This document shows, piece after piece, positions 9,813 through 23,893 of a stretch of DNA of 64,000 nucleotides. Within the stretch, counting starts at the first letter, position 1; every line of letters starts with the position of its first letter. Source of the DNA: Cyanobium sp. FGCU6 (GTDB taxonomy: Bacteria > Cyanobacteriota > Cyanobacteriia > PCC-6307 > Cyanobiaceae); NCBI GenBank assembly GCA_024958655.1, contig JANWUR010000001.1:62001-126000 (forward strand), in the 5' to 3' direction. Below the pieces are notes generated by a model that made no database searches, had not been told where the DNA came from, and saw only the letters and a program-made list of their open reading frames with translations. The position numbers were made by a program, and so were the translations under genes.

Positions 9813-10535
9813 TCAGCCGGGATCGGCCAGCGGCAGGGTATGGAGCAGCCGGCGCCGCTCCGGCCAATCGGGGAGGTGTTGATCCAGCAGGCTGCGGAAG
9901 GCCTCGTCATGGCGGGGCACCCGCAGATGGGCGAGTTCATGGAGCACCACATAGTCCAGGCAGGCCCTGGGCCTGCTGGCCAGCTGGGTGTTGAGGCGGA
10001 TGTTGCCGCTGGCGGGATTGCAGCTTCCCCATTGGCAGCGCATGGCCTGGATGAACAGCCTGTTGCACTCCACCCCCAGGGCCTCCTGCCATCGCTGAAT
10101 CAGCGGCGTGGCGGCTGCGCGAAGTTGCTCGCGATACCAGGCAGCCAACAGGTTCCGGCGTTTGGCGCTGCTGCTGCCGGGCCGGATGACCAGGTGGAGA
10201 TGGTTCGGGCGCAATTCAATCCTCGGTGGCTTGTCCACCTCCTCGATATGCAAGAGAATCCGCCGGCCCCAGACGTAGTGGCTTTCGCGTTCCACCACCT
10301 GACGGGGGCTGAGCCTTTCCTGGCGCTCGAACCGGGATTGCTGGCGACGGATCCAGCCGAGCTTGCCGATCGTGTAGGCCCGCACCTGAGCCTCGCCCAT
10401 TCCTTCGGGCGCTGAGATGCGCACAGCGCCCCGAGGTGGCAGCACCGACAGGTGCAGGTGCTTGATGGGTTTGACGGTGACTTCCACCGCCATCGAACCA
10501 ATCAGGAGCTGATGGCTCGGGCAGGGCTCGGGCAT
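9813..10535 (-). CDS. YgjP-like (COG1451) zinc metallopeptidase of the type I RM locus
   Basis: The 240-residue protein ends with the zinc-binding signature HELAHLRVPRHDEAFRSLL (around residues 197-215), preceded by MRCQWGSCNPASGNIRLN, the typical context of the YgjP/DUF45 family. Proteins of this family are frequently encoded beside hsdR in type I restriction loci, but their job is not established. The start codon shares one base with the hsdR stop (TGATG at 10533-10537), so it is coupled to hsdR and is the last gene of the 13.3 kb defence operon. No signal peptide is visible; it should act in the cytoplasm. Confidence 0.85.
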   Translation of the reverse strand: MPEPCPSHQLLIGSMAVEVTVKPIKHLHLSVLPPRGAVRISAPEGMGEAQVRAYTIGKLGWIRRQQSRFERQERLSPRQVVERESHYVWGRRILLHIEEVDKPPRIELRPNHLHLVIRPGSSSAKRRNLLAAWYREQLRAAATPLIQRWQEALGVECNRLFIQAMRCQWGSCNPASGNIRLNTQLASRPRACLDYVVLHELAHLRVPRHDEAFRSLLDQHLPDWPERRRLLHTLPLADPG

Positions 10536-13500
10536 CAGTATTCGCTCTGGGCCATGAGGACCGCAAACAACCGTTCCACCTGGGCCTGGTCCTGCAACAG
10601 CCCAAACAACGCAGCCTTGATCACCTGCTCCTTGGCTTGGACACCCTTCCAGCCATCGGGCCTCACCTGGCGCACGGTCCGATCGATGCGCAGGGCCAGA
10701 TCGAGATCGCCGTCAAGGTTGCTCCAGAGGGCTCGCTTGCCAGGGCTATCCAGCTCAGATGGGGTGGTGTCGGCCGTTTGTTGCTGCAGCTGGCGAGCCA
10801 GGTCGGCGACTCGACGGAGGTACTCCTCGTAGGCGTCAGCCTGTTGCTTGCGGAAGCGGATGATCTCATCGAGCACCTGGGACATGCGGTCGTAGAAGGC
10901 AGGGTCGTTGGCGCGCTCGCTGATGATCGTGCGGCGCATGTTGTTCTCGATCGTCTCCTGCACCGCCTTGCGGTTGCTGGCCCCCTTGCCGAACGAGGCG
11001 TTGATCGCCTGGGCGACACCTGTCTTGACGATCAATTCCAAGAGGCCGATGTCATCGAACGCGGAGATCTTGCGTGAGGCCTCGGCCTCGATGTAGGCAT
11101 CGATCAGGAAGCGCATGTCGGCCTCATAGGCCTTGAGGTCGAGGTTTTCCCCTGCTGCCAGCCGGATCACCTGGCGCCAGTCGAGGCCCTTGTCGCGCTG
11201 CTGGGTGATGCGGGCGGCCTCATTGGTGCTGTAACCGGCATCGGTGAGTTCATGGGCCAGGGCGGCGTGGGCTCGGGTCAGCTCGGCCACCGCTTTGTAG
11301 TAGGCCATGCGCAGAGGCTCACGCTCCTGCAGGTCGTCAGGGTTTTCGGTGTTGCCGCAGAAGTGGCGCAGAATCGCCAGCTCATCCTGCGGCGGCGCCA
11401 CCGACTCCGCCAGGAGATGTTCCTGTTCAGAGGCCGCGTCCAATCGCCCCTTGGCTTTACTCAGCCGATCCTGCAGCAGCACAGCGGGATCAGGGCCACC
11501 GGCGGAGTGATCCAGATCGTCTTTGGAGTACACCGAGATGGCGTTTTCCACCTTGTTGAACAGGTCCTTGTAGTCAACGATCAGGCCATAGGGCTTGTCG
11601 TCGCCGTCGAGGCGGTTGGTGCGGCAGACCGCCTGGAACAGGCCGTGATCCTGCATCGATTTGTCGATGTAGAGCACGCTGCAGGAGGGGGCATCAAAGC
11701 CGGTGAGCAGCTTATCCACCACGATCAGCAGCTTCATCTGGGCCGGCTGGCCGATGAAGAGCTGTTTGGCCTGCTCTTCATAGGTTTCGGTGCGGCTCAG
11801 GCCTGGCTGCGGGGCGATGCCTGCGAGGAGCTGCTCGTAGGTGTTGAAGATCACCTGCTTATCGGTTTCGGTGTTGGCGCCCACCTCTTCCTTGCTCACA
11901 TCCGCGGCCTTCGGGTCGTAGGAGGTGATCACGGCGCACTTGCCCTTGAGTTCGGTGCGCTGGAACAGCTCGAAGTAGCGGCAGGCCTCATAGATGCTGG
12001 AGGCCACCAGGATCGCGTTGCCGCGTTCGCTCGCCAGCCGCGGGATGTTGACCGCAAAATCGTGGATGATGTCGAACACGATGCGCTCCATCCTTGAGCG
12101 GGAACTGAGCACGTTCTGCAGGGTGCCCCACTGGCGCTTGAGCTCCCGTTGCTGCCAGGGATTGAGTGTGGCGGTCTTGGTGTCGAACCACTGATCCACC
12201 CGCTCCTGGGAGCTGAGGCGCTGGTCGATGTCGCGGGCCTCATACACCAGATCGAGCACCACCTGGTCGTCGACGCCTTCGCTGAACTTGTAGGTGTGGA
12301 TGTAGCCGCCAAAAACCTCCAGGCTGGTGGCTTTGTCCTTCTTGAGCAGGGGCGTGCCGGTGAAGCCGATGAACACGGCCTGGGGCAGCAGCGCCTTCAT
12401 CACCCGGTGCAGCTTGCCGCTCTGGGTGCGGTGGCATTCATCCACGAAGATGAACAGTTCACCCACCGCAGGGCTGGGCTGCGCCTGCAGCTGTTCGAGA
12501 TAGGTTTCGAAGTCGTCGACACCGCGCACGCTGAACTTATGCACCAGAGAGCAGAGCAGCCGTGGGGTTGGCTGAGCCAGGGCCTGCATCAGATCCTTGC
12601 CGCTGCTGCTGCGCTGAATCGTTTCGCCCGCGGCTCCGAACACGCTTTCGATCTGTTTGTCGAGCTCGTCGCGGTCGGTGATGATCACCACGCGGGCGTT
12701 GGGATTGGTAGCCAGGATCCAGCGGGCCAGCAGCACCATCACGATGCTTTTGCCACTGCCCTGGGTGTGCCAGATGATGCCGCCGCGACGTTCGTGAACG
12801 TGTTGTTGGGCCGCCTTGATGCCGAAGTACTGGTGAACCCTTGGCAGCTTCTTGATGCCGCCATCGAACAGCACGAAGTCGCGCAGCAATTCGATCAGCC
12901 GGTCCTTGCGGCAGATCTTGAGCAGGACCTTATCGAGTTTGAGCCGGCTGTTGTCGGCTTCGTCTTCCTTCCAGCGGAGGAAATACTTCTCAGGCGTGTG
13001 GATGGCGCCGTAGCGCAGGCCTTCGGAATCGTTGCCAGCCAGCACCAGCTGGTTGGTGGCAAAGAACCAGGCGTTGAAGTCTGCCTGCTGGTTGGAGAGG
13101 TTCTGGCGGATGCCTTCAGCGAGGCTCACGCGGCTGCGCTTGAGTTCGAGTACGCCGATGGCGATGCCGTTCACATACAGCACCAGATCCGGCCGCCGCT
13201 CACGGGGGCCCTTCAGGGTCACCTCCTCGGCGATGGCGAAGTCGTTGGCGTCGGGGTGCTCCCAGTCGATCAGGGCCACGGTGCTGGTGGGCTGATCGGC
13301 GGCGGCCTTCACCTGCACGCCGTAGCGCAGCAGGGAGTAGACGCGGCGGTTGGCCTCATAGAGGCCGGCCTGACTGACGTCGGCGTCACTGCGCAGCTGA
13401 TAGAGGGCCCCGCTGATCTCCGCTGGGCTGGTGCCGCGCCGCTGCAGATAGGTGGTGAGGATCCCTTCCTCGATGTTGCTGTTGCCCGGTCGATCCTTCC

Positions 13501-13588
13501 AGTCGCCGAGATAGCGGTAGCCCAGCTGCTCCTGGAACAACTTCAGCACCCGGTCCTGGGTGGCCCGTTCGAAGCCGAGGCCGCTCAC
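10535..13588 (-). CDS. hsdR: type I restriction endonuclease subunit R
   Basis: HsdR is the motor-nuclease subunit, translocating and cutting DNA with HsdM and HsdS. The 1017-residue protein is full length. The N-terminal nuclease domain has the PD-(D/E)xK pattern (Asp134 in RRPDLVLY; Glu148-x-Lys150 in GVLELK). Superfamily 2 helicase motifs follow: Walker A HTQGSGKS at 274-281, DECHR at 383-387 and TGTP at 410-413, plus TGFDAPSCSVLYIDKSMQDH in the second RecA-like lobe. All catalytic residues look intact. Its ATG overlaps the stop of the preceding small gene (ATGA at 13585-13588), and the YgjP-like gene begins at its own stop codon. Unusually, five genes separate it from hsdS. Confidence 0.95.
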   Translation of the reverse strand: MSGLGFERATQDRVLKLFQEQLGYRYLGDWKDRPGNSNIEEGILTTYLQRRGTSPAEISGALYQLRSDADVSQAGLYEANRRVYSLLRYGVQVKAAADQPTSTVALIDWEHPDANDFAIAEEVTLKGPRERRPDLVLYVNGIAIGVLELKRSRVSLAEGIRQNLSNQQADFNAWFFATNQLVLAGNDSEGLRYGAIHTPEKYFLRWKEDEADNSRLKLDKVLLKICRKDRLIELLRDFVLFDGGIKKLPRVHQYFGIKAAQQHVHERRGGIIWHTQGSGKSIVMVLLARWILATNPNARVVIITDRDELDKQIESVFGAAGETIQRSSSGKDLMQALAQPTPRLLCSLVHKFSVRGVDDFETYLEQLQAQPSPAVGELFIFVDECHRTQSGKLHRVMKALLPQAVFIGFTGTPLLKKDKATSLEVFGGYIHTYKFSEGVDDQVVLDLVYEARDIDQRLSSQERVDQWFDTKTATLNPWQQRELKRQWGTLQNVLSSRSRMERIVFDIIHDFAVNIPRLASERGNAILVASSIYEACRYFELFQRTELKGKCAVITSYDPKAADVSKEEVGANTETDKQVIFNTYEQLLAGIAPQPGLSRTETYEEQAKQLFIGQPAQMKLLIVVDKLLTGFDAPSCSVLYIDKSMQDHGLFQAVCRTNRLDGDDKPYGLIVDYKDLFNKVENAISVYSKDDLDHSAGGPDPAVLLQDRLSKAKGRLDAASEQEHLLAESVAPPQDELAILRHFCGNTENPDDLQEREPLRMAYYKAVAELTRAHAALAHELTDAGYSTNEAARITQQRDKGLDWRQVIRLAAGENLDLKAYEADMRFLIDAYIEAEASRKISAFDDIGLLELIVKTGVAQAINASFGKGASNRKAVQETIENNMRRTIISERANDPAFYDRMSQVLDEIIRFRKQQADAYEEYLRRVADLARQLQQQTADTTPSELDSPGKRALWSNLDGDLDLALRIDRTVRQVRPDGWKGVQAKEQVIKAALFGLLQDQAQVERLFAVLMAQSEY

Positions 13589-13749
13589 GGCTCGGGTTGC
13601 GGGGCATCGGGGCCTTCAAAAACAGCCCGGCCGTCTTCCCAGGTGACGGTGTAGTGACCAAGACGCCGCTTGCGTTCTAACTCGGCAGTCACCGCCTGCT
13701 GGAGGGCCTCCAGAATCTGCTGAACACCAGGGGGAAGGGCTGAGCTCAT
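13585..13749 (-). CDS. 54-residue protein coupled to hsdR, unknown function
   Basis: This is a small protein: MSSALPPGVQQILEALQQ, then a charged amphipathic helix with KRRLGHYTVTWEDGRAVFEG, ending in DAPQPEP. The stop overlaps the hsdR start (ATGA), the strongest sign that it is real. A TTG six codons upstream (13767) is an alternative start, but a GGGGGA tract 11 bases before ATG 13749 supports the shorter form. Two predicted parts are visible, a helix and a short beta-hairpin-like YTVTWEDGRAVFE. It could be a regulator or assembly factor of HsdR, by position only. It follows a 97-bp gap after the DUF4062 gene, the largest gap in the operon. Confidence 0.7.
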   Translation of the reverse strand: MSSALPPGVQQILEALQQAVTAELERKRRLGHYTVTWEDGRAVFEGPDAPQPEP

Positions 13750-13846
13750 CAGGTCATCTTCCCCCAAGGTGCCATCTGCAAACTAGAGGATACGAGCAGT
13801 GCAGCGGCGAAGGCGCCTGCTTGTCGTTGTCGCTCCCCTGCCGGTG

Positions 13847-15343
13847 TCATGAATTCACCTCCCACCTGCCGCTCTTGGTAGGCCCGCGGTGCTGGATCCG
13901 GCCCTCGGCACGTAATTTCTTGAGGTGATAGCTGATCCCATCCACGCTGAGTTGCAGGGACTCGGCCAGTTCTCTGGTGGTGATCGCCGGCTGCTGCCGC
14001 ATCAAGGCCAGGATCCGCTCGCGGGTCTTGCCGGCCAGCAAGGGAGCCGCAGACTTTTCTTGGGTGGTTTCTTCTGTAGTTTCTTGGGTAGTCTCCGTGG
14101 CTTCTTGGGTGGGTTCTTGGGTAAGGGCTGAGGTTGGAGGTCTCCCAAGGCTGATCCGAAAGCCATCCTCCATGGCAAACACCGGCTCGCTCAGGCCCGC
14201 TTCGCGGCAGCGGCGGATCATGTCGCCGGTGCCCGTGCCCAGGCGTTCGATGTACTGGGTGAGGTAGAGGGGTTCGGCGAGCAGGGGATTGGCGGGGATC
14301 GAGCCGTGGGGCTGGCGTAGCTGGGCGAGGCTGAGGGAAGGCGGCAGGTTGCCGGGGTTCCAGATCTCCACTCGATCGGCGAACACCATCACCTGCACCG
14401 AGCCGTTGCTGGTGTAGTCGCGGTGGGCAACGGCGTTGACGATCGCTTCGCGGATCACCTCCGGCGGAATCTCATAGGCGGCGGGGACCTGGCTGGAAGC
14501 GGCGCGGGTGCCGACGGCGAAGCTGAGGCGAGCGAGCACGAAATCGACCGCCTGATCCACCAGCTCGAACACGTTGCCCTTGAACACCTGATACGACGGA
14601 ATCGGCTTGGCAACGGCGGTGCCGTGAAAGTGGGCGGCCTTCACTTCACTGCTGAGCAGGAAGCGCTGGGGCTGACGGCCAAACAGCAGCACGGCGGCAT
14701 GCACGGGCTGGCCGTTGGCGAGCAGGTTGAGGTGGGTGAGCAGCTCGGATGGGGAGGCGTTGGGCGGCAGAGGGAAGCCGCGCACCTGGCGGGCCCGGTC
14801 GATGAACCAGGCCATGCGCTCGGGATCGAGATCTGCAACTGCGGACTGGGGGCAAGGGGAGGCGTCGAAGGGGCCGCTGCGGATCAGCTGGCGATCGTCG
14901 AGCCACTGCACCAGGGCGGCATAGAGCCCGGCGATCAGTTCGGCGCTGGTGGCGAAGCGGCGCCGCACCAGGGAGGCCTCGGCCTGGCGGATCAGGGCGA
15001 GCATGCGCGGATCGCGGCTGGTGTCGTCGGCGGCCTTGAGAAAGATCAGGCGCGTCTTGCCGCGTTCGCCGGCCCGTTGAAATTCCCGCTCGGTGGGGGA
15101 GAGCCCATCGGCATCGACGCTGCCGACTTCACTGCCAAACAGGCCCACATAGAGCTCGCACTGATCCACCAGATGCAGGTAGAGATCGTCGGCGCGGCGG
15201 TCGCTGGCGGGCAGGTCTTCGAACAGCACCGGCTCGAAGAAACGGCGCAGCAATGGATCTCCCTGCAGGAAATCGCGCAGGGCCAGGCGTTCGGCCGCGA
15301 ACTCCTTCTGCACGCTGCTGAGGAAGATCTGGTGGCGGGTCAT
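13847..15343 (-). CDS. DUF4062 (TIR-like) - RecG-like ATPase - winged helix fusion protein
   Basis: The 498-residue protein has three visible parts. Residues 1 to about 150 match DUF4062 (HQIFLSSVQKEFAAERLALR, later ELYVGLFGSEVG), a TIR-like fold found in defence and signalling proteins. Residues about 170-400 match the RecG-type HATPase_c_4 ATP-binding domain, with IREAIVNAVAHRDY, VMVFADRVEIWNPG and LGTGTGDMIRRC. After a Thr/Gln/Glu repeat linker (about 405-430), a C-terminal winged helix (TRERILALMRQ through SYHLKKLRAEGRI) follows. The start overlaps the upstream gene by ATGA at 15340-15343. Similar ATPase-HTH proteins recur in type I RM loci, where a regulatory or abortive-infection role is suspected but unproven. 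Confidence 0.8.
   Translation of the reverse strand: MTRHQIFLSSVQKEFAAERLALRDFLQGDPLLRRFFEPVLFEDLPASDRRADDLYLHLVDQCELYVGLFGSEVGSVDADGLSPTEREFQRAGERGKTRLIFLKAADDTSRDPRMLALIRQAEASLVRRRFATSAELIAGLYAALVQWLDDRQLIRSGPFDASPCPQSAVADLDPERMAWFIDRARQVRGFPLPPNASPSELLTHLNLLANGQPVHAAVLLFGRQPQRFLLSSEVKAAHFHGTAVAKPIPSYQVFKGNVFELVDQAVDFVLARLSFAVGTRAASSQVPAAYEIPPEVIREAIVNAVAHRDYTSNGSVQVMVFADRVEIWNPGNLPPSLSLAQLRQPHGSIPANPLLAEPLYLTQYIERLGTGTGDMIRRCREAGLSEPVFAMEDGFRISLGRPPTSALTQEPTQEATETTQETTEETTQEKSAAPLLAGKTRERILALMRQQPAITTRELAESLQLSVDGISYHLKKLRAEGRIQHRGPTKSGRWEVNS
14057..14122 (+). repeat. in-frame short repeat encoding a TQE linker
   Basis: Four exact copies of the 9-mer TTCTTGGGT lie at 14057, 14081, 14102 and 14114 (plus strand), spaced 24, 21 and 12 bases apart, all multiples of three. 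On the coding strand they give a Thr-Gln-Glu-rich linker between the ATPase domain and the winged helix of the DUF4062 protein. Such a tract can expand or contract without breaking the frame, changing linker length between strains. Confidence 0.8.
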
Positions 15344-17298
15344 GCAGCCACGGGATCAAGGCTCAGGATCTCCCGCTCCACATAGGCCCGGAAGGCCGAG
15401 GGAGAGGTGAAGCAGCGAAACCCGGCGGCGCTGGCCAGGGCCAGGGTGGCGGGCTCTTCGTTGAGCAGCACGGCCACGGGCTGGCTGAGCTCCTCCTGGA
15501 TGCCTGCGGGCCAGGCCAGATCGAACACGGCTTGCTGCTCGCCGGTGGCCGGATCGGCGAAGTCGTAGGCGAGGGTGCCAAGGGGGAGGGACTGCTCACC
15601 CATCCACGTATTGAGACCGATCAGCTCGGCTTCTTCCTCCTCGCTGGTGATGCCGCCAACTGTTTCGCTGGCTTGTTGGGGAACGGCTGCTGCTGGGCCG
15701 GAGAGCCAGCGGGTGTCGCCATGGAGCAGTTCCTCCAGCCGGGCGTTGACCTCAGCTGCCAGTAGCCCCTTGCGGGCCTCCAGGAAAGAGCGGAAGTTCC
15801 CCAGCTTCCAGAGCTCAGGATCCTGGGGAATCCACTGGGAGGCCAGGGCACCCGGATGGGCGGCCTCGATCTCGGGGAAGTACGCCTCTGGCAGGCGATC
15901 GGTGATCTTGATGTTGGTGTCTTTGGTGAGGAAGCAGAAGTTGGCTAGGGCGTTGACCTCTGGCCTGCGGTAGCCGGACTTGTAGAGCTGGGCCTTGGGG
16001 AAGATGTGATGCACCTCTAGGCGGCTCATCTTGCCGAGCATGCTGGCCTTAAGCGGAAGTCCGGTGCCCCAGTCGCGGGCTGCGCCCATCCGGGTGAGGA
16101 GGTAGAGCACAGGGTAGAAGCGGGCGCCGAGGCTCCAGCCGGTGAAGTGCCCGGGTTCCACCCGCAACCCGCCATGCCAGAGGCGCAGCTGCTCCAGTAG
16201 GCGCTCCAGCCCGGCACCTTCGCCTTCGAGGGCGGCGAGGTCCTGATCGATGAACGATTCGGTGGAACCGGAAAAGCGGCCCCACATGCCGGCCTGTACG
16301 AACCAGAACAGCAGCCGGTCGCGTTCCACCTCATCCATGGGCCCGCTGCGCTGATCGAGGTAGCGCACCATCACGGGGATGCCGAACCGCCCGAAGAACA
16401 CCTGGTCGTGATCAAGGCCGAGTCGTCCCGCGATCAGGTTGAGGCAGGTGTCGATGTGCCTGGTGGCGCGTTTGAGCGCGTCCTGGATTTCGGGGGTGCT
16501 CTTGTCGTGCAGGTAGAGGAACTTGGCCTCACCGGTAAGCACCGTGTTCACCGAGCGCAGCAGCCAGTCGAGGTTGAAGCTGTAACCGTGGTCGCTCCAT
16601 TCCTTGAGCTTGACCTTCATCGCATCACGACCCTCCGGCCAGTCGGCGCAGATCTTGGCGAGGGCCAGGTCGCCCTTGGAGAGCTTGGTGCCGCCACTGT
16701 TGACGCGGTTGAAGATGTCCACCACCACGTCGAGCGTCTTGTCGGCGCCGGTGACTTCTTCGATGTGGAGATCGATCTCTGTGATTCCCAGCAGTTGGCT
16801 GAGACGGCCGATGAACTCGCCAACGCGAGGGGCCAGCTCAGGGTTCTGACCAAACTCGGCAGCCAGCTGGCCGAGGCCGGCGCTGCCCGTGCCGAGCAGG
16901 TTGGTCACATCGATCCAGAGCGGATCGTCCTTCATCTTCACCGGCTGGTAGAAGGCAAACACCTCCTCTCCGAGATGGAAGCGGAGCCCGGAGAAGGCCT
17001 GGGCGTTGCCATCGAAGAACTTGGGAGGCTTGCCGCGCACAACCCCATAGAGGGAGGTCATGCGTTGCTGGCCATCGAGCAGCAGCTTCACCACACCTGC
17101 CGCCAGCGGGCCATCCCCCCGATGGGTGGCGGTCTGCGACTCCGTGGCCCACACCAGCAGACCGCCGACGGGATGGCGCTTGTAAAGGGAGTCGAACAAC
17201 CCTCGCACCTGGTCGCGATTCCACACGTAGCCCCGCTGGAACTCGGGCAGGGCCATGTGGCCGCTGTCGATGTGGTCGAGGATGGTGGAGATCTTCAT
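15340..17298 (-). CDS. DUF262 + HNH (GmrSD-like) type IV restriction-type protein
   Basis: The 652-residue protein starts with a DUF262 domain: ALPEFQRGYVW at 16-26, LLLDGQQRMTSLYG at 72-85 with the DGQQR motif, and FNRVNSGGTKLSKGDLALAK at 196-215. The middle is helical. Further on is an HNH/DUF1524-like nuclease motif, LEVHHIFPKAQLYK at 427-440 with N449 and N453. This is the GmrS plus GmrD arrangement on one chain; GmrSD cuts modified phage DNA (glucosylated hydroxymethylcytosine) in a nucleotide-dependent manner. Whether this protein targets modified DNA is inference. It lies 3 bases after ptuB and overlaps the DUF4062 gene by ATGA. Confidence 0.85.
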   Translation of the reverse strand: MKISTILDHIDSGHMALPEFQRGYVWNRDQVRGLFDSLYKRHPVGGLLVWATESQTATHRGDGPLAAGVVKLLLDGQQRMTSLYGVVRGKPPKFFDGNAQAFSGLRFHLGEEVFAFYQPVKMKDDPLWIDVTNLLGTGSAGLGQLAAEFGQNPELAPRVGEFIGRLSQLLGITEIDLHIEEVTGADKTLDVVVDIFNRVNSGGTKLSKGDLALAKICADWPEGRDAMKVKLKEWSDHGYSFNLDWLLRSVNTVLTGEAKFLYLHDKSTPEIQDALKRATRHIDTCLNLIAGRLGLDHDQVFFGRFGIPVMVRYLDQRSGPMDEVERDRLLFWFVQAGMWGRFSGSTESFIDQDLAALEGEGAGLERLLEQLRLWHGGLRVEPGHFTGWSLGARFYPVLYLLTRMGAARDWGTGLPLKASMLGKMSRLEVHHIFPKAQLYKSGYRRPEVNALANFCFLTKDTNIKITDRLPEAYFPEIEAAHPGALASQWIPQDPELWKLGNFRSFLEARKGLLAAEVNARLEELLHGDTRWLSGPAAAVPQQASETVGGITSEEEEAELIGLNTWMGEQSLPLGTLAYDFADPATGEQQAVFDLAWPAGIQEELSQPVAVLLNEEPATLALASAAGFRCFTSPSAFRAYVEREILSLDPVAA

Positions 17299-17301
17299 GG
17301 C

Positions 17302-18096
17302 TCAGCCATTGTAACCGATGCTCTGTAGATATTCTTCTGCAAAATCACCAAGACGAAATCGGTATACCGAGAAGAACTCGCGATAACGGGGGCCAAGATA
17401 TCTCCTGCAGAGGTTGATCATAAAAACAGATTTGTCTAATCCAGCTTTGCGAGCCTGCTGGATCTCTCGCTCTAGGTGGTGAAGAATCGCCAGGCGATTA
17501 CGCGCAAGCCTTGTGCAGTTCAAATTTAGGATACGAATGCTTTCGTTTACCAGTTCTCCCACGGTTTCGTACGTGTTTCCAGGCATGCTGATGGTGTTCG
17601 CATTCGCTTCATGTACATGCCAATGTCCGGTGCCGTGCTCTAGCCGCATTGGAAACGGCATTGCAGGAAGAAAGAGGGGATTAAGAAGCACTCCATGGCA
17701 ATTGATGGTGCCTAGTGCTCGTTCCTTGTGAGCATCGCAACTCAGATTTTCAATGGGGGGCTCAAGGAAGTGGCGAGGATCGTTTCTTCTCTGACTGCCG
17801 CCCATGCAAGTAGCCAGCAGATTGTCCCAGTTAAGGGCCCAGTTCATGCCGGGGTCAGGCAGCGCCTTGGGAATAAAATGCTCAACACGAGTGGTGTTGT
17901 CGGATCGGCTAATCTTGATTTCGCAGTAGGCGCAGATCCCGCCTTGATCAGCTTCCAGCGAGTCCACAATCGCGTCATAAGCCTGCATGCCACCGCTCAA
18001 GGCATCGTTCCGCATCCCTTCCCAGGCGCTCAAAGGATGGGCTTGGCGGTAGGCAAGTAACTCTTGGGGCTCATCCGACTTTGCAACTCGCTTCAT
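17302..18096 (-). CDS. HNH endonuclease, PtuB-like (TIGR02646 type)
   Basis: The 264-residue product has the zinc-ribbon HNH pattern of the PtuB/retron-HNH family: GGICAYCEIKI with Cys55 and Cys58, RVEHFIPKA with Glu72-His73, then a WNWDNLLATCMGG-like region containing Asn92 and Cys97. PtuB is the nuclease of Septu antiphage systems and works with the ATPase PtuA, whose gene lies immediately upstream. The ATG at 18096 overlaps the PtuA stop in an ATGA junction and has a GGGAGA tract before it; an in-frame ATG six codons upstream (18114) is the alternative. Base composition falls to roughly half GC by eye, against about 70% around the operon, pointing to a foreign origin. Confidence 0.85.
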   Translation of the reverse strand: MKRVAKSDEPQELLAYRQAHPLSAWEGMRNDALSGGMQAYDAIVDSLEADQGGICAYCEIKISRSDNTTRVEHFIPKALPDPGMNWALNWDNLLATCMGGSQRRNDPRHFLEPPIENLSCDAHKERALGTINCHGVLLNPLFLPAMPFPMRLEHGTGHWHVHEANANTISMPGNTYETVGELVNESIRILNLNCTRLARNRLAILHHLEREIQQARKAGLDKSVFMINLCRRYLGPRYREFFSVYRFRLGDFAEEYLQSIGYNG

Positions 18097-19436
18097 GACA
18101 TATCTTTCTCCCATATCCGGTTTTCAATATGGAGATCAGCTTCAAGCAACTTTGGCTCGTAACCCTGGTAGCGCTCATCGAGGGTAGTCCTCAATTCCTT
18201 GGCACGGATGCTATCCCACTGCTCTTGATCAACCAGAGCGAGATATTCTTTGAGTTCATCCACCGCCGGGATCGGTGGACGTGGATCCTTTAGGCCCAAA
18301 ACGTCATGCAGTAGACGGTGACTCTCGGCACCTAAGGCACCGGGTGGTGCTGCAAAGCATTTCCCATCCTGAAGAATCCGAATCTGCTGTGAATTCACCG
18401 TGCTCAGCACCTCTGGGCTATGGGTGGTGACAATGAATTGAATCTCTGGGAAGGCCTCGCGCAGCGCCGGCAAGATGCGCTGCTGCCAGCCTGGGTGGAG
18501 ATGCTGCTCAATCTCATCAATGAGGACAATGCCGTTGCTTTTCTCAGGCGCAAACTGTCCATAGAGACTATTCAAGCGCACACAACGAAAGGCCAAATCG
18601 GCGACCAAGGCCACCACTCCGCAGATGCCGTCACTTAATTGGCTGACGGGGAGAAGGCCGAGATCGTTGTGAAACATAGCCAGCTCTTCCATACCCAGGT
18701 AGTAGCCGAAACGCGACCATCCTTCGTCCTTAAGGACGGAATCAACAGCCTGCTGGATCGCCTCCAAGCGTGAGGCCATCATCACGCCATGGGGCACAAG
18801 CAATGGATCCTCTTGCTGCAGCTTTAGCAATGTAGCTTTGGCTATCCATTGCTGGACTTGCAGATAGTTCGAGCTGGACGAGAAGCAGTCTTCGTAGCCA
18901 ATCGTACGATTCTCACTGAGAATCTTCTTGCGGCTCAGATTCTTATTTGTTTTCCAGAGGCGTCCGTTGCCATAGTAGACAAGAATAGGCAAGATATTGT
19001 CTGCAACGTGATTGATGTTGTCCTGCAGGACCTGGCCGTAGCGTCTCAGGCAGGCGGCTTCGCCAACGGTTGTTGATCCTTTATAGCTTGAGAGTTGCCT
19101 GGCAATCTTGTGATCCTGGAGAATATGGCTTAGCTCGTTGGTGTCTGTGAATGGGAAAGCCACTGTCCCCTCGACGCGAATCGGCCAATGAGCACTCATC
19201 CTGAATGTTTCGGTATCTTGGTACAGCTCTTGTCGTGCATCAGCCGGAGCGAATCCCTTGGAACGGCCCAGATCAAATGCCCCGACAAACGGTCCCAGCA
19301 GCACGGTGATCGCATCCAGGATGCTGCTTTTCCCTTGCCCATTACGAGCCACCAGCACCGTTAAGTCGTCCTCAAACGTCACCTTCAGGTCTTCGAAGCG
19401 ACGGAAGTTCTGGATGTGAAGCTCGCGGATCAGCAT
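18093..19436 (-). CDS. AAA/ABC-type ATPase, PtuA-like (Septu)
   Basis: The 447-residue protein is an SMC/OLD-like ATPase. It begins LHIQNFRRFEDLKVTF and has Walker A ARNGQGKSS at 30-38. An ABC-signature-like SQLSDGICG follows near residue 270, then Walker B GIVLIDEIEQHLHPGWQQR, and a conserved His switch in IVTTHSPEVLSTV. The order PtuA-PtuB with ATGA overlap is the layout of type I Septu, in which PtuA assembles with PtuB to sense and degrade nucleic acid. No reverse transcriptase is present, so this is not the retron version. The sequence is noticeably AT-richer than host genes. A 19-base gap separates it from hsdS. Confidence 0.85.
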   Translation of the reverse strand: MLIRELHIQNFRRFEDLKVTFEDDLTVLVARNGQGKSSILDAITVLLGPFVGAFDLGRSKGFAPADARQELYQDTETFRMSAHWPIRVEGTVAFPFTDTNELSHILQDHKIARQLSSYKGSTTVGEAACLRRYGQVLQDNINHVADNILPILVYYGNGRLWKTNKNLSRKKILSENRTIGYEDCFSSSSNYLQVQQWIAKATLLKLQQEDPLLVPHGVMMASRLEAIQQAVDSVLKDEGWSRFGYYLGMEELAMFHNDLGLLPVSQLSDGICGVVALVADLAFRCVRLNSLYGQFAPEKSNGIVLIDEIEQHLHPGWQQRILPALREAFPEIQFIVTTHSPEVLSTVNSQQIRILQDGKCFAAPPGALGAESHRLLHDVLGLKDPRPPIPAVDELKEYLALVDQEQWDSIRAKELRTTLDERYQGYEPKLLEADLHIENRIWEKDMS

Positions 19437-19455
19437 GGTAGGAGGTTTGGGGCCT

Positions 19456-20736
19456 TCATTTGAGGCGGATCTTGCCGGTGAGGAGCTGCTGCATCATTCC
19501 TTGCTTGATTCCCTGAGCCTTCTGAAGCTGATCATTTAGTGAGTCTATGTCGGAATCCATTTCGGAGAGCATCTCCGCTATTGCAATCTGCTCCTCCATG
19601 CTTGGCCATTTGATCTCGAGGTTCAGGAGTGCACGCTTGGAAATATTCTTCATGCTCCCACTGGTGCCCGTGGCTAGCTCCTTGATACGAGCACGATTGT
19701 GCTGCGTCGAGAGCGTGTATGCAAGCCAGCGGGAACTGACTGCATGAGGATCACGGTAGGCTGTGCGCCACAGCCGATCAGGCAGGAATAAATTGGGATG
19801 ATCTAATTGCGAGTACCCACACTCTCCGACCAAGGCTGGGGTGTTCATTCTGCTGATAATCAAGTCACCTTGCTTGATTGGTGTTTTGGCTCGACTGATG
19901 TCGCAAGAGATGATCTCCTTCCTTTCGGTTGGCGAAAACTGACCTTGACTGACTGCTGATGTCTTCAGGATGTAGCGGCCAGTGCTCAGCTGGTCTTTAT
20001 CAGTAGTCGATCGCACACTAACGCCGGCTTCAAGATCCCGGATTTCATCCCCCAACCTCTTCACCTGCCACTCCCCCTCAAACCCCGGCAGCCGCCGCTT
20101 GCCGGTGAGCAGATCCTGCATGGCGGCCTGCTTGATGTTTCGCTTTTTGTCTAAAAGCTGTTCGTGCGAAGCCAATAGCGCATCCATGTCGTCTAGTAGG
20201 GAGACAACCTTGCGCCTCTCCTCCTTTTCCGGCACCGGTAGCGAAATCCGCGATATGTCGCGAAGATTAATGACCTTCTGGGCGGACCCAATTGCTTCTT
20301 TTAGCAAAAGTTTCTTGCCCATATCTGACCGCAGAAACCAGCAGATATAACTGGCAACTTCATCATTAGAGCGATCAAGCCGAGCGATTGCGACTTGCCG
20401 TGCGATATTCCCTCCCGCAAGATGAGGCGGGACAATGGCTGCTTCTCCTGGGTAGCCAACCAGGCTCACAAGCAGTTCTCCACCTCTCAGGATCGTTCGC
20501 TCGTATTGCCTAGAAACCTTTGCCGATATTGTTCTAAGATTGTCCTCTGCTATTGAACCGTCATAGATATCGCCGCCGCGAATAAAGAGAACTCCATCAG
20601 CGACGACTGGGCCAGGTTGTACCACTCCATACGTAATGCCACTACCAGGCTGAAGCAGGGAGGTGATCGGCGCCACATCCCAATCCTCTGGGATCACCCC
20701 CACCTCGGTCTGCTTGTAGCCCGGCTTCAGTTCCAT
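19456..20736 (-). CDS. hsdS: type I restriction-modification specificity subunit S
   Basis: HsdS gives the system its DNA recognition sequence. The 426-residue product has two target-recognition halves (about 1-170 and 222-380), each followed by a conserved helical spacer: LLDDMDALLASHEQLLDKKR...IKQAAMQDLLTGKRRL (181-216) and EMDSDIDSLNDQLQ...IKQGMMQQLLTGKIRL (392-425). The internal repeat is visible by eye. ATG 20736 (MELKPGYKQTEVGVIPEDW) overlaps hsdM by 10 bases. The frame runs open further upstream, but that part is antisense to hsdM coding and is not used. The recognition domains are AT-rich compared with the spacers, as expected for segments exchanged between strains. Confidence 0.94.
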   Translation of the reverse strand: MELKPGYKQTEVGVIPEDWDVAPITSLLQPGSGITYGVVQPGPVVADGVLFIRGGDIYDGSIAEDNLRTISAKVSRQYERTILRGGELLVSLVGYPGEAAIVPPHLAGGNIARQVAIARLDRSNDEVASYICWFLRSDMGKKLLLKEAIGSAQKVINLRDISRISLPVPEKEERRKVVSLLDDMDALLASHEQLLDKKRNIKQAAMQDLLTGKRRLPGFEGEWQVKRLGDEIRDLEAGVSVRSTTDKDQLSTGRYILKTSAVSQGQFSPTERKEIISCDISRAKTPIKQGDLIISRMNTPALVGECGYSQLDHPNLFLPDRLWRTAYRDPHAVSSRWLAYTLSTQHNRARIKELATGTSGSMKNISKRALLNLEIKWPSMEEQIAIAEMLSEMDSDIDSLNDQLQKAQGIKQGMMQQLLTGKIRLK

Positions 20737-23135
20737 GCGAACCCCATCCGCTCCAGGTGGCTGGCTACGCGTGCTTCCAGTTCTTCCACCCGCGTGCTGA
20801 TCGCAGGTAGGGGCTCTCCGTAGCGCTCGCCCAGCTGTTTGAGGCGGCTGGTGAGGGCCTGGCTCACGCGTTCCACCTCGGCGGACACGGACTGCTCCAG
20901 GGAGTCCAGCCACTTGCCTTGCACCACCAGCTCGCGCACCTCGGCTTCCGTGAGGCTGTCGTAGCGGCCGTAGGCCTGGTCGTCGAGTTCGGCTTCGGCG
21001 GCTTTGAGGGCCTTCTTGGTAGCGGCCTCCTCGTCGCTCAGCTCCAGCCATTCCCGCAGCACGGCCAGCTCCTCCGCGGCTTCGGGATCCTTGCGGATCT
21101 CCTTGATGCGAGCGTTGACGGCGGCCTTGGTGATCTTGTCCAACTCGCTGAAGGCGCCCTCGTCGCCGCCGTGCTCCTCCTCCAGTTCCGCCAGGCGGCT
21201 GCTGGCCTCCTCCAACTGGGCGCGCAGGGCTTCGATCAGCTCCAGATCACCGGCGAACAGCTGGCGCACCAGCAGCTCCTTGGGCACCAGGTCGCAGGCC
21301 CAGCCTTTGTCCTTGGTCTTGCCCTTCTTGTCGGTTTCCAGCACCCGGTAGGGCTCAGCGCGCCAGCCCTCGGCGCTGATCGCATACACGTCGTCCTGCA
21401 TCGTCTCGGCCCACTGGTCGAGCAGCAGCTGGTACACGGCGTAGGCATCGATCAGGGGCTGGCCCTTGTAGTGGGCCAGCAGGCCCTCGCTCAGCTCGCG
21501 GATCACGGCCTTGGGGTGGCAGCCCGGCTCCAGGGCGATCAGCTGGGCCGCCGCCTGCTGGCGCCAGGCCTCAAAGTGCTTGGCCATCCCATCCAGGAAG
21601 CCGGCGAACTGGGGATGGGCCGTGATCGTGGCCTTCAGCTCCGCCGGATCCACCGCCAGCTCCAGATAGCCGGACCGCAGCGGCCGGAACAAGGCTTCGC
21701 GAAGCTGCGGGCACACCTGCCAATAGGCCTGCAGGGCGTCGATGTCGCGCTCGGGGATGCCGCCGCGCAGGTGGGCCTCGATGTCCTGCAGGTCTTCCGC
21801 CTCAGAGCTGTCGATGTAGCGGGGCAAGTTGAGGTTGTAGTCGTGCCCGGCGATCTCCTCGTTGCGCACAAAGCGCGAATAGCCGGGCAGCTCCAGCTGG
21901 CGGGTGAACACATCGACGATCTTGTGGATGTCGCGTTCGCGCAGGCGGTTCTTGGGGCCGTCCTTCATGAAACCCTTGCTGGCATCCACCAGGAAGATCC
22001 CTTCGCGGTTGCCGGCCTCGCGCTTGTCGATCACCACGATGCAGGCGGGAATGCCGGTGCCATAGAAGAGGTTGGCCGGCAGGCCGATGATCCCCTGGAT
22101 CAAGCCCCTCAGGATCAGGTTCTTGCGGATCTCGGCTTCGGCGTTGCCGCGGAACAGCACGCCATGGGGAAGGATGCAGCTGCCCTTGCCGGTGCTCTTG
22201 AGCGTGCGCACGATGTGCAGCAGATAGGCATAGTCGCCCTGCTTGGCCGGCGGGATGCCGAAGCCGTCGAAGCGCCCGTAGGCATCCTTGGCCGCATCCA
22301 GCCCGGTGCTCCAGCGCTTGTCTGAAAACGGTGGATTGGCCACCACATAGTCGAACTGCTTGAGCTGCTCGGCTTCCTTCAGCTTTGGATCGGCCAGGGT
22401 GTTGCCCTGCCAGATGATCGCTGTGGGGTTGCCGTGCAGGATCATGTTCATCCGCGCCAGGCCGCTGGTGGCGGCGTCCTTCTCCTGGCCGTAGAGCGTC
22501 ACCGGCCGGCCCGCCTGGGCCGCCACCTTCAGCAGCAACGACCCCGAACCGCAGAACGGATCGCACACCGTGGTGGAGGCCTTCACATCGTCGCTGTTGA
22601 TCTGCAGCACCTGTGCCTTGACGCGGCTCACCTCGGCCGGCGTGAGGAACTGCCCCTTGCTCTTGCCGCTCTCCACGGCGAAGTGGCGCATCAGATATTC
22701 GTAGGCATCGCCAAGGATGTCGTCGTCATCGGCCCGGTTGCGGGAGAAGTTGAGCGCCGGTGCCTCGAAGATGGCGATCAGATCGGTGAGGCGATCAATG
22801 AGCTCCTTGCCGCTGCCCAGCTTGTCCTGAGCGTTGAAATCGGGGAAATCGCTCTGGCTCAGCTGCTGGTTGGCGGCCACCAGCGGCGCAATGATCTGTT
22901 TGTTGATGCGATCGCCGATCTCCGCCTTGCCCTTGAGGGCCACCATGTCGGCAAAGCCGGAGCCCTCGGGGATCGTCAGCGGCGCATAGGGCTGGCCGGC
23001 GTACTTGTCGCTGATGTATTTGAGGAACAGCAACACCAGCACATAGTCCTTGTACTGGCTGGCATCCATGCCGCCGCGCAGGGCGTCGCAGCTGGCCCAG
23101 AGGCTCGAATACAGCTCCGACTTGCGGATGGCCAT
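20727..23135 (-). CDS. hsdM: type I DNA methyltransferase subunit M (N6-adenine)
   Basis: HsdM methylates adenine in the site set by HsdS. In the 802-residue protein the N-terminal helical domain (MAIRKSELYSSLWASCDALR) is followed by GQFLTPAEVSR at 161-171, SAM motif I CDPFCGSGSLLLK at 191-203 and catalytic motif IV ANPPF at 266-270. All key residues are present. A long C-terminal region (about 500-802) contains charged coiled-coil segments, making it longer than the classic EcoKI subunit but normal for this branch. ATG 23135 is chosen by homology to the family N-terminus; the upstream frame is non-conserved. It is the first gene of the defence operon and diverges from the phd-vapC pair. Confidence 0.95.
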   Translation of the reverse strand: MAIRKSELYSSLWASCDALRGGMDASQYKDYVLVLLFLKYISDKYAGQPYAPLTIPEGSGFADMVALKGKAEIGDRINKQIIAPLVAANQQLSQSDFPDFNAQDKLGSGKELIDRLTDLIAIFEAPALNFSRNRADDDDILGDAYEYLMRHFAVESGKSKGQFLTPAEVSRVKAQVLQINSDDVKASTTVCDPFCGSGSLLLKVAAQAGRPVTLYGQEKDAATSGLARMNMILHGNPTAIIWQGNTLADPKLKEAEQLKQFDYVVANPPFSDKRWSTGLDAAKDAYGRFDGFGIPPAKQGDYAYLLHIVRTLKSTGKGSCILPHGVLFRGNAEAEIRKNLILRGLIQGIIGLPANLFYGTGIPACIVVIDKREAGNREGIFLVDASKGFMKDGPKNRLRERDIHKIVDVFTRQLELPGYSRFVRNEEIAGHDYNLNLPRYIDSSEAEDLQDIEAHLRGGIPERDIDALQAYWQVCPQLREALFRPLRSGYLELAVDPAELKATITAHPQFAGFLDGMAKHFEAWRQQAAAQLIALEPGCHPKAVIRELSEGLLAHYKGQPLIDAYAVYQLLLDQWAETMQDDVYAISAEGWRAEPYRVLETDKKGKTKDKGWACDLVPKELLVRQLFAGDLELIEALRAQLEEASSRLAELEEEHGGDEGAFSELDKITKAAVNARIKEIRKDPEAAEELAVLREWLELSDEEAATKKALKAAEAELDDQAYGRYDSLTEAEVRELVVQGKWLDSLEQSVSAEVERVSQALTSRLKQLGERYGEPLPAISTRVEELEARVASHLERMGFAWN

Positions 23136-23253: not shown

Positions 23254-23508
23254 GTGACGCGCGTTTCGGTGTCCCATCTGCGCCAGCACCTGCCCTCCTA
23301 TCTCAAGCGGGTGCAGGAGGGGGAGGCCATCCAGATCACCTCCCGCGGCCGCGTGATCGCCCGGCTGCAGGCCGAACAGGATCCCGCCGAAGCAGCCCGC
23401 CAATGGCTCGAGGGGCTGCAGGGGCGCGTGACGCTGGTGGATGTGTTGGCGCCCCTGGATCCGGAGTCGGCGGACGACGCCTGGAGCGGCGATGCCGACC
23501 ATCTGTGA
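23254..23508 (+). CDS. Phd/YefM-family antitoxin
   Basis: The 84-residue protein begins VTRVSVSHLRQHLPSYLKRV and continues EAIQITSRGRVIARL, the DNA-binding N-terminal fold of Phd/YefM antitoxins. The C-terminal part is acidic and probably disordered, the usual toxin-neutralising tail. GTG 23254 is chosen because it matches the family N-terminus and leaves the TGTACA operator upstream; GTG 23230 would place the operator inside the gene. Its last 17 bases overlap vapC. No Shine-Dalgarno sequence is visible, so translation may be leaderless or weak. Confidence 0.82.
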   Translation: MTRVSVSHLRQHLPSYLKRVQEGEAIQITSRGRVIARLQAEQDPAEAARQWLEGLQGRVTLVDVLAPLDPESADDAWSGDADHL

Positions 23509-23893
23509 CACCCACGTGTTGCTGTTCTGGGCCCACGAGCCCGAGCGGCTCTCAGCGACGGCACGCCAGGCCCTTGAGCAGGGCCGCAGCCAGGCCGAGC
23601 TGGCCATCGCTGACATCACGCTGTGGGAGCTGGCCCTGCTGCAGGAGCGCGGCCGGCTGCAGCTCCCCGCTGAGGTGGCCCCCGCCTTCTACCTCAAGCA
23701 ACTGCTGGCGGCGCTGCGCCTGGAGGTGCTGCCGATCACACCGGAGATCGCCCTGCTCTCGCGCCGTGCACTCTTCCAGCACGGCGATCCGGCCGATCGC
23801 CTGATCGGTGCCACCGCCCTGCAGCTGGGGGCGCCCCTGATCACGGCGGACGCCAGGTTGCGGGCGCTGGAGGGCCTGAAGACGGTGTGGTGA
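23492..23893 (+). CDS. PIN-domain toxin (VapC-like ribonuclease)
   Basis: The 133-residue protein has the compact PIN fold with the acidic metal-binding residues in place: Asp6 (TICDTHVLLFW), Glu46 (DITLWEL), Asp99/Asp102 (HGDPADRLIGATAL) and Asp120 (LITADARL). PIN toxins cut specific RNAs when freed from their antitoxin. This subgroup (COG3744-like) is often paired with Phd antitoxins, as here. The start ATG 23492 lies inside the antitoxin gene, 17 bases before its stop, so synthesis is coupled. The pair diverges from hsdM and may stabilise the defence operon by post-segregational killing, which is inference. Confidence 0.87.
   Translation: MPTICDTHVLLFWAHEPERLSATARQALEQGRSQAELAIADITLWELALLQERGRLQLPAEVAPAFYLKQLLAALRLEVLPITPEIALLSRRALFQHGDPADRLIGATALQLGAPLITADARLRALEGLKTVW

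Follow-up and report, generated by a model that had tools for sequence, protein, structure and literature searches.

The window analysed here is the whole 64,000-nucleotide stretch of the Cyanobium sp. FGCU6 genome (4.07 Mb) that covers positions 62,001 to 126,000 of its contig C27. Nine genes fill the interval 9813-23135, all on the minus strand, in the order hsdM, hsdS, ptuA, ptuB, a DUF262 gene, a gene for a DUF4062-HATPase_c_4-winged helix-turn-helix (wHTH) protein, an open reading frame (ORF) of 54 amino acids (aa), hsdR and ygjP. We think it likely that this is a cassette dock, a type I restriction-modification (RM) operon that co-expresses exchangeable, autonomous and complementary defences, and not one new machine. 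The order hsdM, hsdS, (cargo), DUF262, (cargo), hsdR, ygjP is repeated in related genomes, which is more than chance, and the cargo carried on this backbone varies. The original prediction of a nine-gene minus-strand operon with its modules nested in a type I RM system was confirmed by the gene calls and family matches.

The operon and its slots

We propose that the inner junctions of the hsdM-hsdS-hsdR-ygjP operon may be places where defence cassettes are exchanged. Slot 1, from the hsdS stop to the DUF262 start, would at present hold Septu, and slot 2, from the DUF262 stop to the hsdR start, the DUF4062-GHKL-wHTH gene and the 54-aa ORF. The DUF262 gene between the two slots is probably cargo of longer standing, by now almost fixed in this picocyanobacterial clade. 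Seven of the nine genes match named families (Pfam, PADLOC, NCBIfam). The features are listed below in the direction of the operon, with the E values of the matches in brackets.

20727..23135, minus: hsdM, type I methyltransferase, 802 aa (long form); Pfam N6_Mtase (1.2e-91), PADLOC MTase_I over the full length
19456..20736, minus: hsdS, specificity subunit, 426 aa; family matches; low G+C (52.9%; 58.5% at third codon positions, GC3)
18093..19436, minus: ptuA, slot 1, ABC-type ATPase of Septu, 447 aa; PADLOC PtuA (2.3e-131), PDB 8ee4 PtuA (9.5e-70)
17302..18096, minus: ptuB, slot 1, HNH protein of Septu, 264 aa from 18096; PADLOC PtuB (3.6e-73); low G+C
15340..17298, minus: DUF262/GmrSD_N protein, BrxU-like, 652 aa, C-terminal HHxxP...N motif; Pfam (5.9e-25), PADLOC HEC-05 (2.3e-41)
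13847..15343, minus: DUF4062 (TIR-like, E85)-HATPase_c_4-winged HTH protein, slot 2, 498 aa; Pfam DUF4062 (1.1e-17), alignment to KpSwz
13750..13846, minus: 97-nt gap between the DUF4062 gene and the 54-aa ORF; no zeta match in the window
13585..13749, minus: 54-aa ORF, no family match; relatives in some related slots at 69-79% and in the Methylomagnum slot at 54%
10535..13588, minus: hsdR, 1017 aa; family matches; PD...ExK from residue 133, QGSGKS at 276, DECH at 383
9813..10535, minus: ygjP, YgjP/SprT-type metallopeptidase, 240 aa, final backbone gene; Pfam YgjP-like (2.4e-53)

HsdM, HsdS and HsdR of a type I RM system are thus all present, with methylase (FCGSG at residue 194 and NPPF at residue 267 of HsdM), PD...ExK and motor motifs. 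We take the expected motifs of HsdM, HsdR, PtuA, PtuB and the DUF262 protein to be the catalytic ones. The ygjP gene stands behind hsdR in relatives too.

The hsdM and hsdS genes overlap by 10 nt, gaps of 19 nt and 3 nt separate hsdS from ptuA and ptuB from the DUF262 gene, the DUF262 and DUF4062 genes share an ATGA overlap, and hsdR and ygjP meet at TGATG. The longest ptuB ORF runs from 18114 and overlaps ptuA by 22 nt. Because the PADLOC profiles begin at the methionine at residue 7, however, the start is most likely 18096, with a 4-nt ATGA overlap. The junctions originally predicted therefore hold, that of ptuA and ptuB given this start, save for the one between the 54-aa ORF and hsdR: as the start codon of hsdR is GTG, this overlap is GTGA and not ATGA. 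One transcript would probably span the operon. A scan for promoter-like sites (2 against 2.4 expected) and terminator-like sites (14 against 9.9 +/- 3.5 expected) found no clear excess, which speaks neither for nor against this.

Backbone and cargo in close relatives

A search of 400 genomes of the family with HsdR gave 24 at E <= 1e-60, the window's own included. Nine other genomes match at 81-92%, three of them only partly, and all nine regions were read; another 13 of the 24 matches lie at about 33-39% identity (G348 is also in the 81-92% group). The window's genome itself has a second hsdR region (L141). Genomes and loci are given by our own G and L numbers.

Comparing gene order across cyanobacterial genomes, the check originally suggested, shows that the backbone recurs in relatives and that its cargo varies. 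Across the related operons HsdM is 84-94% and HsdR 81-92% identical, and HsdS 30-50%. L129 (G286) carries PtuAB (59 and 36% identical), the DUF262 gene (96%), a DUF4062 gene with a frameshift, and the 54-aa ORF. L130 (G292) has PtuAB (76 and 38%) and a DUF4062 gene (79%), no match to the 54-aa ORF, and a DUF262 gene of which residues 1-67 and 623-648 are left, separated by other ORFs. In L131 (G102) and L132 (G235) slot 1 holds a PDC-M31A/B pair, assigned by family scan in L131 and by 76 and 50% identity to that pair in L132, followed by DUF262 genes (96 and 94%) and an empty slot 2. Slot 1 is empty in L133 (G099), where hsdS overlaps the DUF262 gene (95%) and a zeta-like gene (Pfam Zeta_toxin, 9.2e-8) and the 54-aa ORF follow. 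L134 (G069) retains residues 1-58 and 561-647 of DUF262, along with the 54-aa ORF, and has one in-frame stop in hsdM. L137 (G348) consists of a DUF4062 gene lacking its N-terminus, a truncated zeta-like gene, the 54-aa ORF and an hsdR relic; L142 (G315) and L143 (G352) start inside hsdR and are uninformative on the slot. Of two more distant loci, L135 (G378) has an empty slot, and L136 (G108) has an AAA_13 ATPase (PDC-S06, 1.2e-272) in slot 1, two DUF262 proteins and a 156-aa ORF similar to the window's DUF4062 protein in its C-terminal part. The AAA_13 protein of L136 matched none of the solved structures searched. The tight junctions had been read as a sign of fixed stoichiometric coupling; with cargo swapped between relatives on a constant backbone, that reading is not supported.

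Base composition and divergence suggest how the swap may have occurred. The GC3 of hsdS and the slot 1 genes is 46-65%, against 82-90% in hsdM and DUF262 (six loci; L133, with its empty slot 1, contributes hsdS only); that of the window's ptuA is 60.7%. Compared with the window, the synonymous divergence (dS) of hsdM is 0.26-0.44, of DUF262 0.35-0.42, of hsdR 0.40-1.27 and of ygjP 1.1-1.8, and that of ptuA, at 0.93 in L130 and 2.9 (saturated) in L129, exceeds its neighbours. The low G+C of hsdS could by itself be a property of that gene, but from GC3, dS and the low HsdS identity together, hsdS and slot 1 look as if they were exchanged as a block. Similarly, hsdM and DUF262 look to have been shared more recently than ygjP and, in L130-L133, than hsdR. 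Cassettes may be swapped through recombination between the conserved flanks (hsdM, DUF262 and hsdR), with a new hsdS carried along. Flanking chromosomal genes match those of the window on both sides of L130 and one side of L129, and in none of eight other loci (L131-L137 and L140, up to 20 kb each).

Purifying selection acts on PtuA (dN/dS 0.108 and 0.186) and on the DUF262 protein (0.064-0.087 in four comparisons); the single comparison for the DUF4062 gene gave 0.256.

The wider family

The same backbone ending in YgjP/SprT is found in other cyanobacteria, in Proteobacteria and Actinobacteria, and on plasmids of three phyla. In the cyanobacterial phylum 12 of 386 genomes matched at E <= 1e-150, the window's own included, and nine of the other eleven were examined. 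Plasmids gave 35 of 72,556 records at E <= 1e-100, 17 of which were opened. The hsdR of the family from an IncY plasmid matched 328 of 5,426 E. coli genomes at any length and 264 over at least 80%, and 6 of 334 E. coli records were opened. Cargo played no part in the choice of loci, which were picked by HsdR similarity; the sample is non-random and partly non-independent, and several loci have an interrupted hsdR or hsdM.

We applied one rule for slot content to 41 loci, or 40 once L184, with no readable hsdS, is set aside. With a minimum length of 50 aa, 31 of the 40 have a same-strand ORF in the hsdS-hsdR interval (8/9 from the family-genome search, 8/8 other cyanobacterial loci, 9/17 plasmids and 6/6 E. 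coli genome records). As short ORFs may be chance, we also used a threshold of 90 aa. This leaves 8/9 in the first set (L134 only through relics and unassigned ORFs), 5/8 in the second (excluding L186, whose sole long ORF is the hsdS frame), 8/17 plasmid records (excluding a 62-aa relative of the 54-aa ORF in Methylomagnum) and all 6 E. coli genome records, of which five carry closely similar copies of darTG2 and the sixth a pair of DUF262 genes. Leaving the E. coli genome set aside, an ORF of at least 90 aa is present in 21 of the 34 loci that could be read, one of the 34 being an E. coli plasmid. The eight plasmid junctions lacking even a 50-aa ORF are just -1 to 109 nt long.

The range of cargo, assigned by family search or record annotation, is wide. 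The slots hold PtuAB, PDC-M31A/B, single and paired DUF262 genes, DUF4062-GHKL, zeta-like and PDC-S06/AAA_13 genes (the PADLOC families PDC-M31, PDC-S06, PDC-S14 and HEC being candidate or embedded families). They also hold PIN genes in L180, L181 and L187 (below the cut-off in L179), Uma2 in L183, RES in L187, and DarTG2 in E. coli genomes. An AlbA_2-GHKL gene occupies the slot of S. elongatus IITB7, and in Citrobacter and Vibrio cidicii such a gene follows an AAA-like ATPase, annotated TrlF in Citrobacter. The Aeromonas veronii plasmid pAV1812-2 (L210 6103-7987) carries genes for a CBASS cyclase (6.3e-199) and a 2TM effector (2.3e-80), two Rhodococcus plasmids carry proteins annotated as GIY-YIG, of which the one scanned matches PDC-S14, and P. 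juntendi carries a 323-aa protein with no family assigned. The hsdM-hsdS junction is used as well, by an annotated PDDEXK nuclease in Acaryochloris and by XisH/XisI/Uma2 in Euhalothece; judged by eye, G637 has an OLD-like ATPase there and G714 a PIN-like ORF.

The embedded modules

The assignment of ptuA and ptuB to Septu was upheld by PADLOC and by matches to solved structures: a PtuA ATPase gene is followed by a PtuB HNH gene, with the family motifs in both. PtuB also matches an NCBIfam model and the HNH protein of retron Ec83 (PDB 9e8z, 1.4e-28), its match to Pfam HNH being weak (0.03). A reading of the pair as part of a type I-A retron was rejected, as contig C27 has no reverse transcriptase; the two RVT_1 genes of the genome are on contigs C58 and C63, and the sole match in the window at the Rfam gathering threshold is a tRNA. 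The nearest named relatives of PtuA are those of Cyanobium sp. FGCU52 (76%) and Microcystis elabens FACHB-917 (59%). Another Septu cleaves tRNA-Tyr in the variable loop (PMC13096335). We searched 66 further PtuA-like loci, leaving out L004 and L005 of the same clade, with the window's own proteins, a search that other type I families could escape; many of these loci match the PtuA ATPase core only. A PtuB relative was found in 15, hsdM in one and, within the available flanks, hsdR in none.

The DUF262 gene had been called GmrSD-like, and Pfam and PADLOC HEC-05 agree. Its protein has the DUF262 domain with DGQQR and matches PDB 7p9k (2.5e-10), mainly at the N-terminus; we take this structure to be BrxU. 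A Pfam match to GmrSD_C (DUF1524) is absent up to E 0.5, yet HHIFP at 430 and NALANF at 449 are present. HEC-05 is given as BrxU in PMC11411939. Structure models of this protein (mean pLDDT 36.4) and of the DUF4062 protein (41.3) were uninformative, most likely because few close sequences, three and four respectively, could be aligned. The DUF262 protein is 94-96% identical in the four other loci with an intact copy, and among 251 family genomes such near-identical copies are confined to this operon. More distant relatives lie in stretches of other kinds: in Paracoccus marcusii (67%) the gene stands before helicase and methylase genes, in Nostoc N6 (52%) it is close to DISARM genes, and further copies come from Aulosira (51%) and Haloquadratum (31%). 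These four are the records opened out of 15. A contig in IMG/VR (L201 2295-11820) carries hsdM-hsdS-DUF262-hsdR-ygjP in this order, with DUF262 at 75-76% and HsdR at 48%. Close to these five genes is one that by eye resembles an endolysin gene.

The TIR-like label given to the DUF4062 gene is likewise sustained, by a preprint that describes DUF4062 as a TIR-like NADase family (PMC13174449) and by the alignment to KpSwz. There KpSwz hydrolyses NAD+ once its auxiliary domain has bound the phage portal protein. The DUF4062 domain alone matches the KpSwz NADase at 0.002, with E85 aligned to residue 82 of the KpSwz chain, which, going by the construct name, would be E97 of that preprint. The match covers residues 3-102 of the window protein only and the rest is HATPase_c_4 and HTH, so that the C-terminal, portal-sensing AUX domain has no counterpart among the matches. 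Relatives (61-62%) occur on two Legionella plasmids (2 of 109 records opened), and a viral scan with the DUF4062 protein found none. The Legionella hackeliae copy (L145 11986-13489) is split into two annotated genes. None of hsdM, hsdS, hsdR and ygjP was found in the six stretches with DUF262 (four) or DUF4062 (two) relatives.

A second DUF4062-GHKL protein, 49-50% identical, is encoded directly behind a divergent type I hsdM both on contig C45 of the window's genome and in G035 (L139 1476-2963, minus strand, and L138 12311-13798, plus strand). Among 26 other GHKL loci, five have hsd-like genes within about 1.5 kb. Slots of the family also hold proteins that join AlbA_2 (Schlafen-type) to HATPase_c_4 (L173 2557-4014, L211 6648-7817 and L215 6605-7825). 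This suggests replacement of the effector domain on a GHKL-based chassis, with DUF4062 where others carry AlbA_2.

We considered whether the 54-aa ORF may be the partner of a lost zeta-like kinase. The zeta-like and 54-aa genes overlap in L133 and L137; the zeta-like gene of L137, 64% identical to that of L133, is flanked by the DUF4062 gene and the 54-aa ORF. Counting against a partnership, neither the window nor L129 or L134 has a match to the zeta-like protein of L133, the 97-nt gap holds no recognisable remnant, and the 54-aa family stands without an adjacent zeta-like gene in Methylomagnum and G005. The Methylomagnum copy, at an hsdS-hsdR junction (L172 9485-9673) and with no DUF4062 gene beside it either, is the only plasmid relative (1 of 72,556 records, E <= 0.01), which means that the 54-aa ORF can occur in no more than one of the 62 plasmid records with zeta relatives.

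Alternative explanations

If the operon is a cassette dock, the modules are most likely independent and layered. HsdMSR would cut unmodified DNA, the DUF262 protein modified DNA, PtuAB would halt translation through tRNA cleavage and the DUF4062 protein would deplete NAD+ upon sensing a phage component, activities assigned to the families from PMC13174449, PMC13096335 and PMC11411939. The bond between them would be shared transcription and joint transfer, each module probably acting on its own in this host.

Several observations weigh against this reading. Since no ORF reaches 90 aa in 13 of the 34 slots, the backbone does not require cargo. In L129 the dS of hsdR (0.40) is close to that of DUF262 (0.38), and the hsdR gradient is clear only in L130-L133. 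The DUF4062-GHKL protein of the second, divergent type I locus, the GHKL loci with hsd-like genes nearby and the repeated presence of AlbA_2-GHKL in the slot hint that GHKL proteins may be functionally linked to type I enzymes. The DUF262 protein, so conserved in the four other intact loci, behaves more like a fixed partner. Both loci with a damaged DUF262 gene have in-frame stops in hsdR, which fits either a link of DUF262 with HsdR or simple decay. Against several phages the protection given by tgvAB on its own fell 10-100-fold short of that from the complete cluster, a difference that the authors ascribe to expression (PMC11411939).

A rival reading makes a single dedicated machine of HsdMSR, the DUF262 protein and YgjP, for example for combined restriction of modified and unmodified DNA, with PtuAB and the DUF4062 protein as passengers. 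The strong constraint on DUF262, its near-identical copies solely in this operon and the five-gene set on the IMG/VR contig all favour it. So do the hsdR stops, one in L130 (3823-6876, minus) and two in L134 (8880-11924, plus), the two loci with damaged DUF262, against none in the four with an intact copy. As hsdR is broken in both damaged loci, DUF262 may be tied more closely to HsdR. Decay in L130 and L134 may be general, however, as the hsdM of L134 also has a stop. DUF262 relatives at 51-67% do without hsd genes, and of 18 wider backbone loci searched only L136 has a DUF262 match at E <= 1e-4. We regard a single machine as unlikely.

The original prediction offered the hypothesis of a guard, in which assembled HsdMSR silences PtuAB, the DUF4062 protein or both until a phage anti-restriction protein releases them, as Stp does with PrrC and EcoprrI. 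An AAA_13 ATPase in slot 1 of L136 would suit this, the AAA_13 family presumably including PrrC, as would the GHKL proteins found repeatedly in the slot and near other hsd genes. PrrC is itself encoded in a type I locus and activated when EcoPrrI is inhibited (PMC12707154), and tRNA cleavage is common to Septu and PrrC (PMC13096335). Set against this are the many unrelated cargo families that fit the same backbone, the 66 other PtuA-like loci with no hsdR and a single hsdM, and the relatives of DUF262 and DUF4062 that live apart from hsd genes. TgvAB protects independently of HsdR restriction (PMC11411939) and KpSwz is triggered by the phage portal protein (PMC13174449). The guard keeps some appeal but is not specifically supported, and we judge it improbable, somewhat more so than a single machine. 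The same low probability attaches to a broader version, in which the inner junctions of the YgjP-linked type I family would form a dedicated dock and every suicidal effector plugged in there (tRNase PtuAB, TIR-GHKL NADase, DarT, Schlafen-like AlbA_2-GHKL or CBASS) would be coupled to the status of HsdMSR or of the shared transcript. The operon would then sound an alarm whenever restriction fails, and its killers would be interchangeable.

Defence genes cluster in general, and chance co-location in a defence island, with no special role for the hsdS-hsdR junction, would account for the degraded operons (L134, L137) and for cargo at the hsdM-hsdS junction. Our cargo counts are confined to the hsdS-hsdR junction. 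Tight overlaps, a single strand and reuse of the same junction across phyla nevertheless make mere clustering very unlikely.

Relation to known systems

Embedding of defences in type I operons is already in print. The RRDM island of enteropathogenic E. coli (EPEC) has the order RptR-HsdMS-DarTG2-HsdR-M48, and its hsdS-hsdR site was proposed as a potential recombination hotspot (PMC12255303). The window has the same hsdM-hsdS-cargo-hsdR-M48/YgjP order and backbone family, with HsdM at 56%, HsdR at 51% and the RRDM 'M48' protein YgjP-like at 41%, and cargo between hsdS and hsdR. RRDM, however, holds the single module DarTG2 and an upstream repressor gene, rptR, and the window three modules in two slots; the best tblastn match of EPEC RptR in the window has E 0.6 and is not upstream of hsdM. 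No same-strand gene call lies directly upstream of hsdM. Divergent from it, at 23269-23893 (plus), are genes for proteins that by eye look Phd-like (79 aa) and PIN/VapC-like (133 aa), resembling a toxin-antitoxin pair at the edge of the island.

TgvAB, the closest tested precedent, also places DUF262 proteins between the hsd genes of a type I operon and acts on phages with modified cytosines; GmrSD homologs are described as frequent within type I loci (PMC11411939). It is a two-protein pair with a DUF1524 domain, unlike the single 652-aa BrxU-like protein here, which lacks a Pfam GmrSD_C hit. PrrC/EcoprrI shares with the window a translation-stopping effector encoded inside a type I RM locus (PMC12707154), although PtuAB are assigned to other families than PrrC. 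The window's Septu has both genes of known Septu in the same order with the family motifs (PDB 8ee4, PMC13096335), but is embedded in an RM operon. The DUF4062 domain with its aligned glutamate resembles Swarozyc (PMC13174449), but is joined to HATPase_c_4 and a winged HTH, the KpSwz match stopping after DUF4062. Payne and colleagues have reportedly worked on embedding too, and are cited by the RRDM and TgvAB papers. The combination had been called unusual: this stands for the three-module stack and not for embedding in a type I operon as such. The stack, the two slots and the cargo breadth of the YgjP-linked family did not appear in the titles and abstracts searched, mostly of open literature.

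The family offers a natural series, across several phyla, in which the restriction backbone stays constant and the embedded defence varies. This makes it testable whether embedding means shared expression and joint transfer only, or whether restriction controls the effector as with PrrC. It is also a hunting ground, since the hsdS-hsdR junctions opened in this family contain mostly genes that look like those of defences or toxins.

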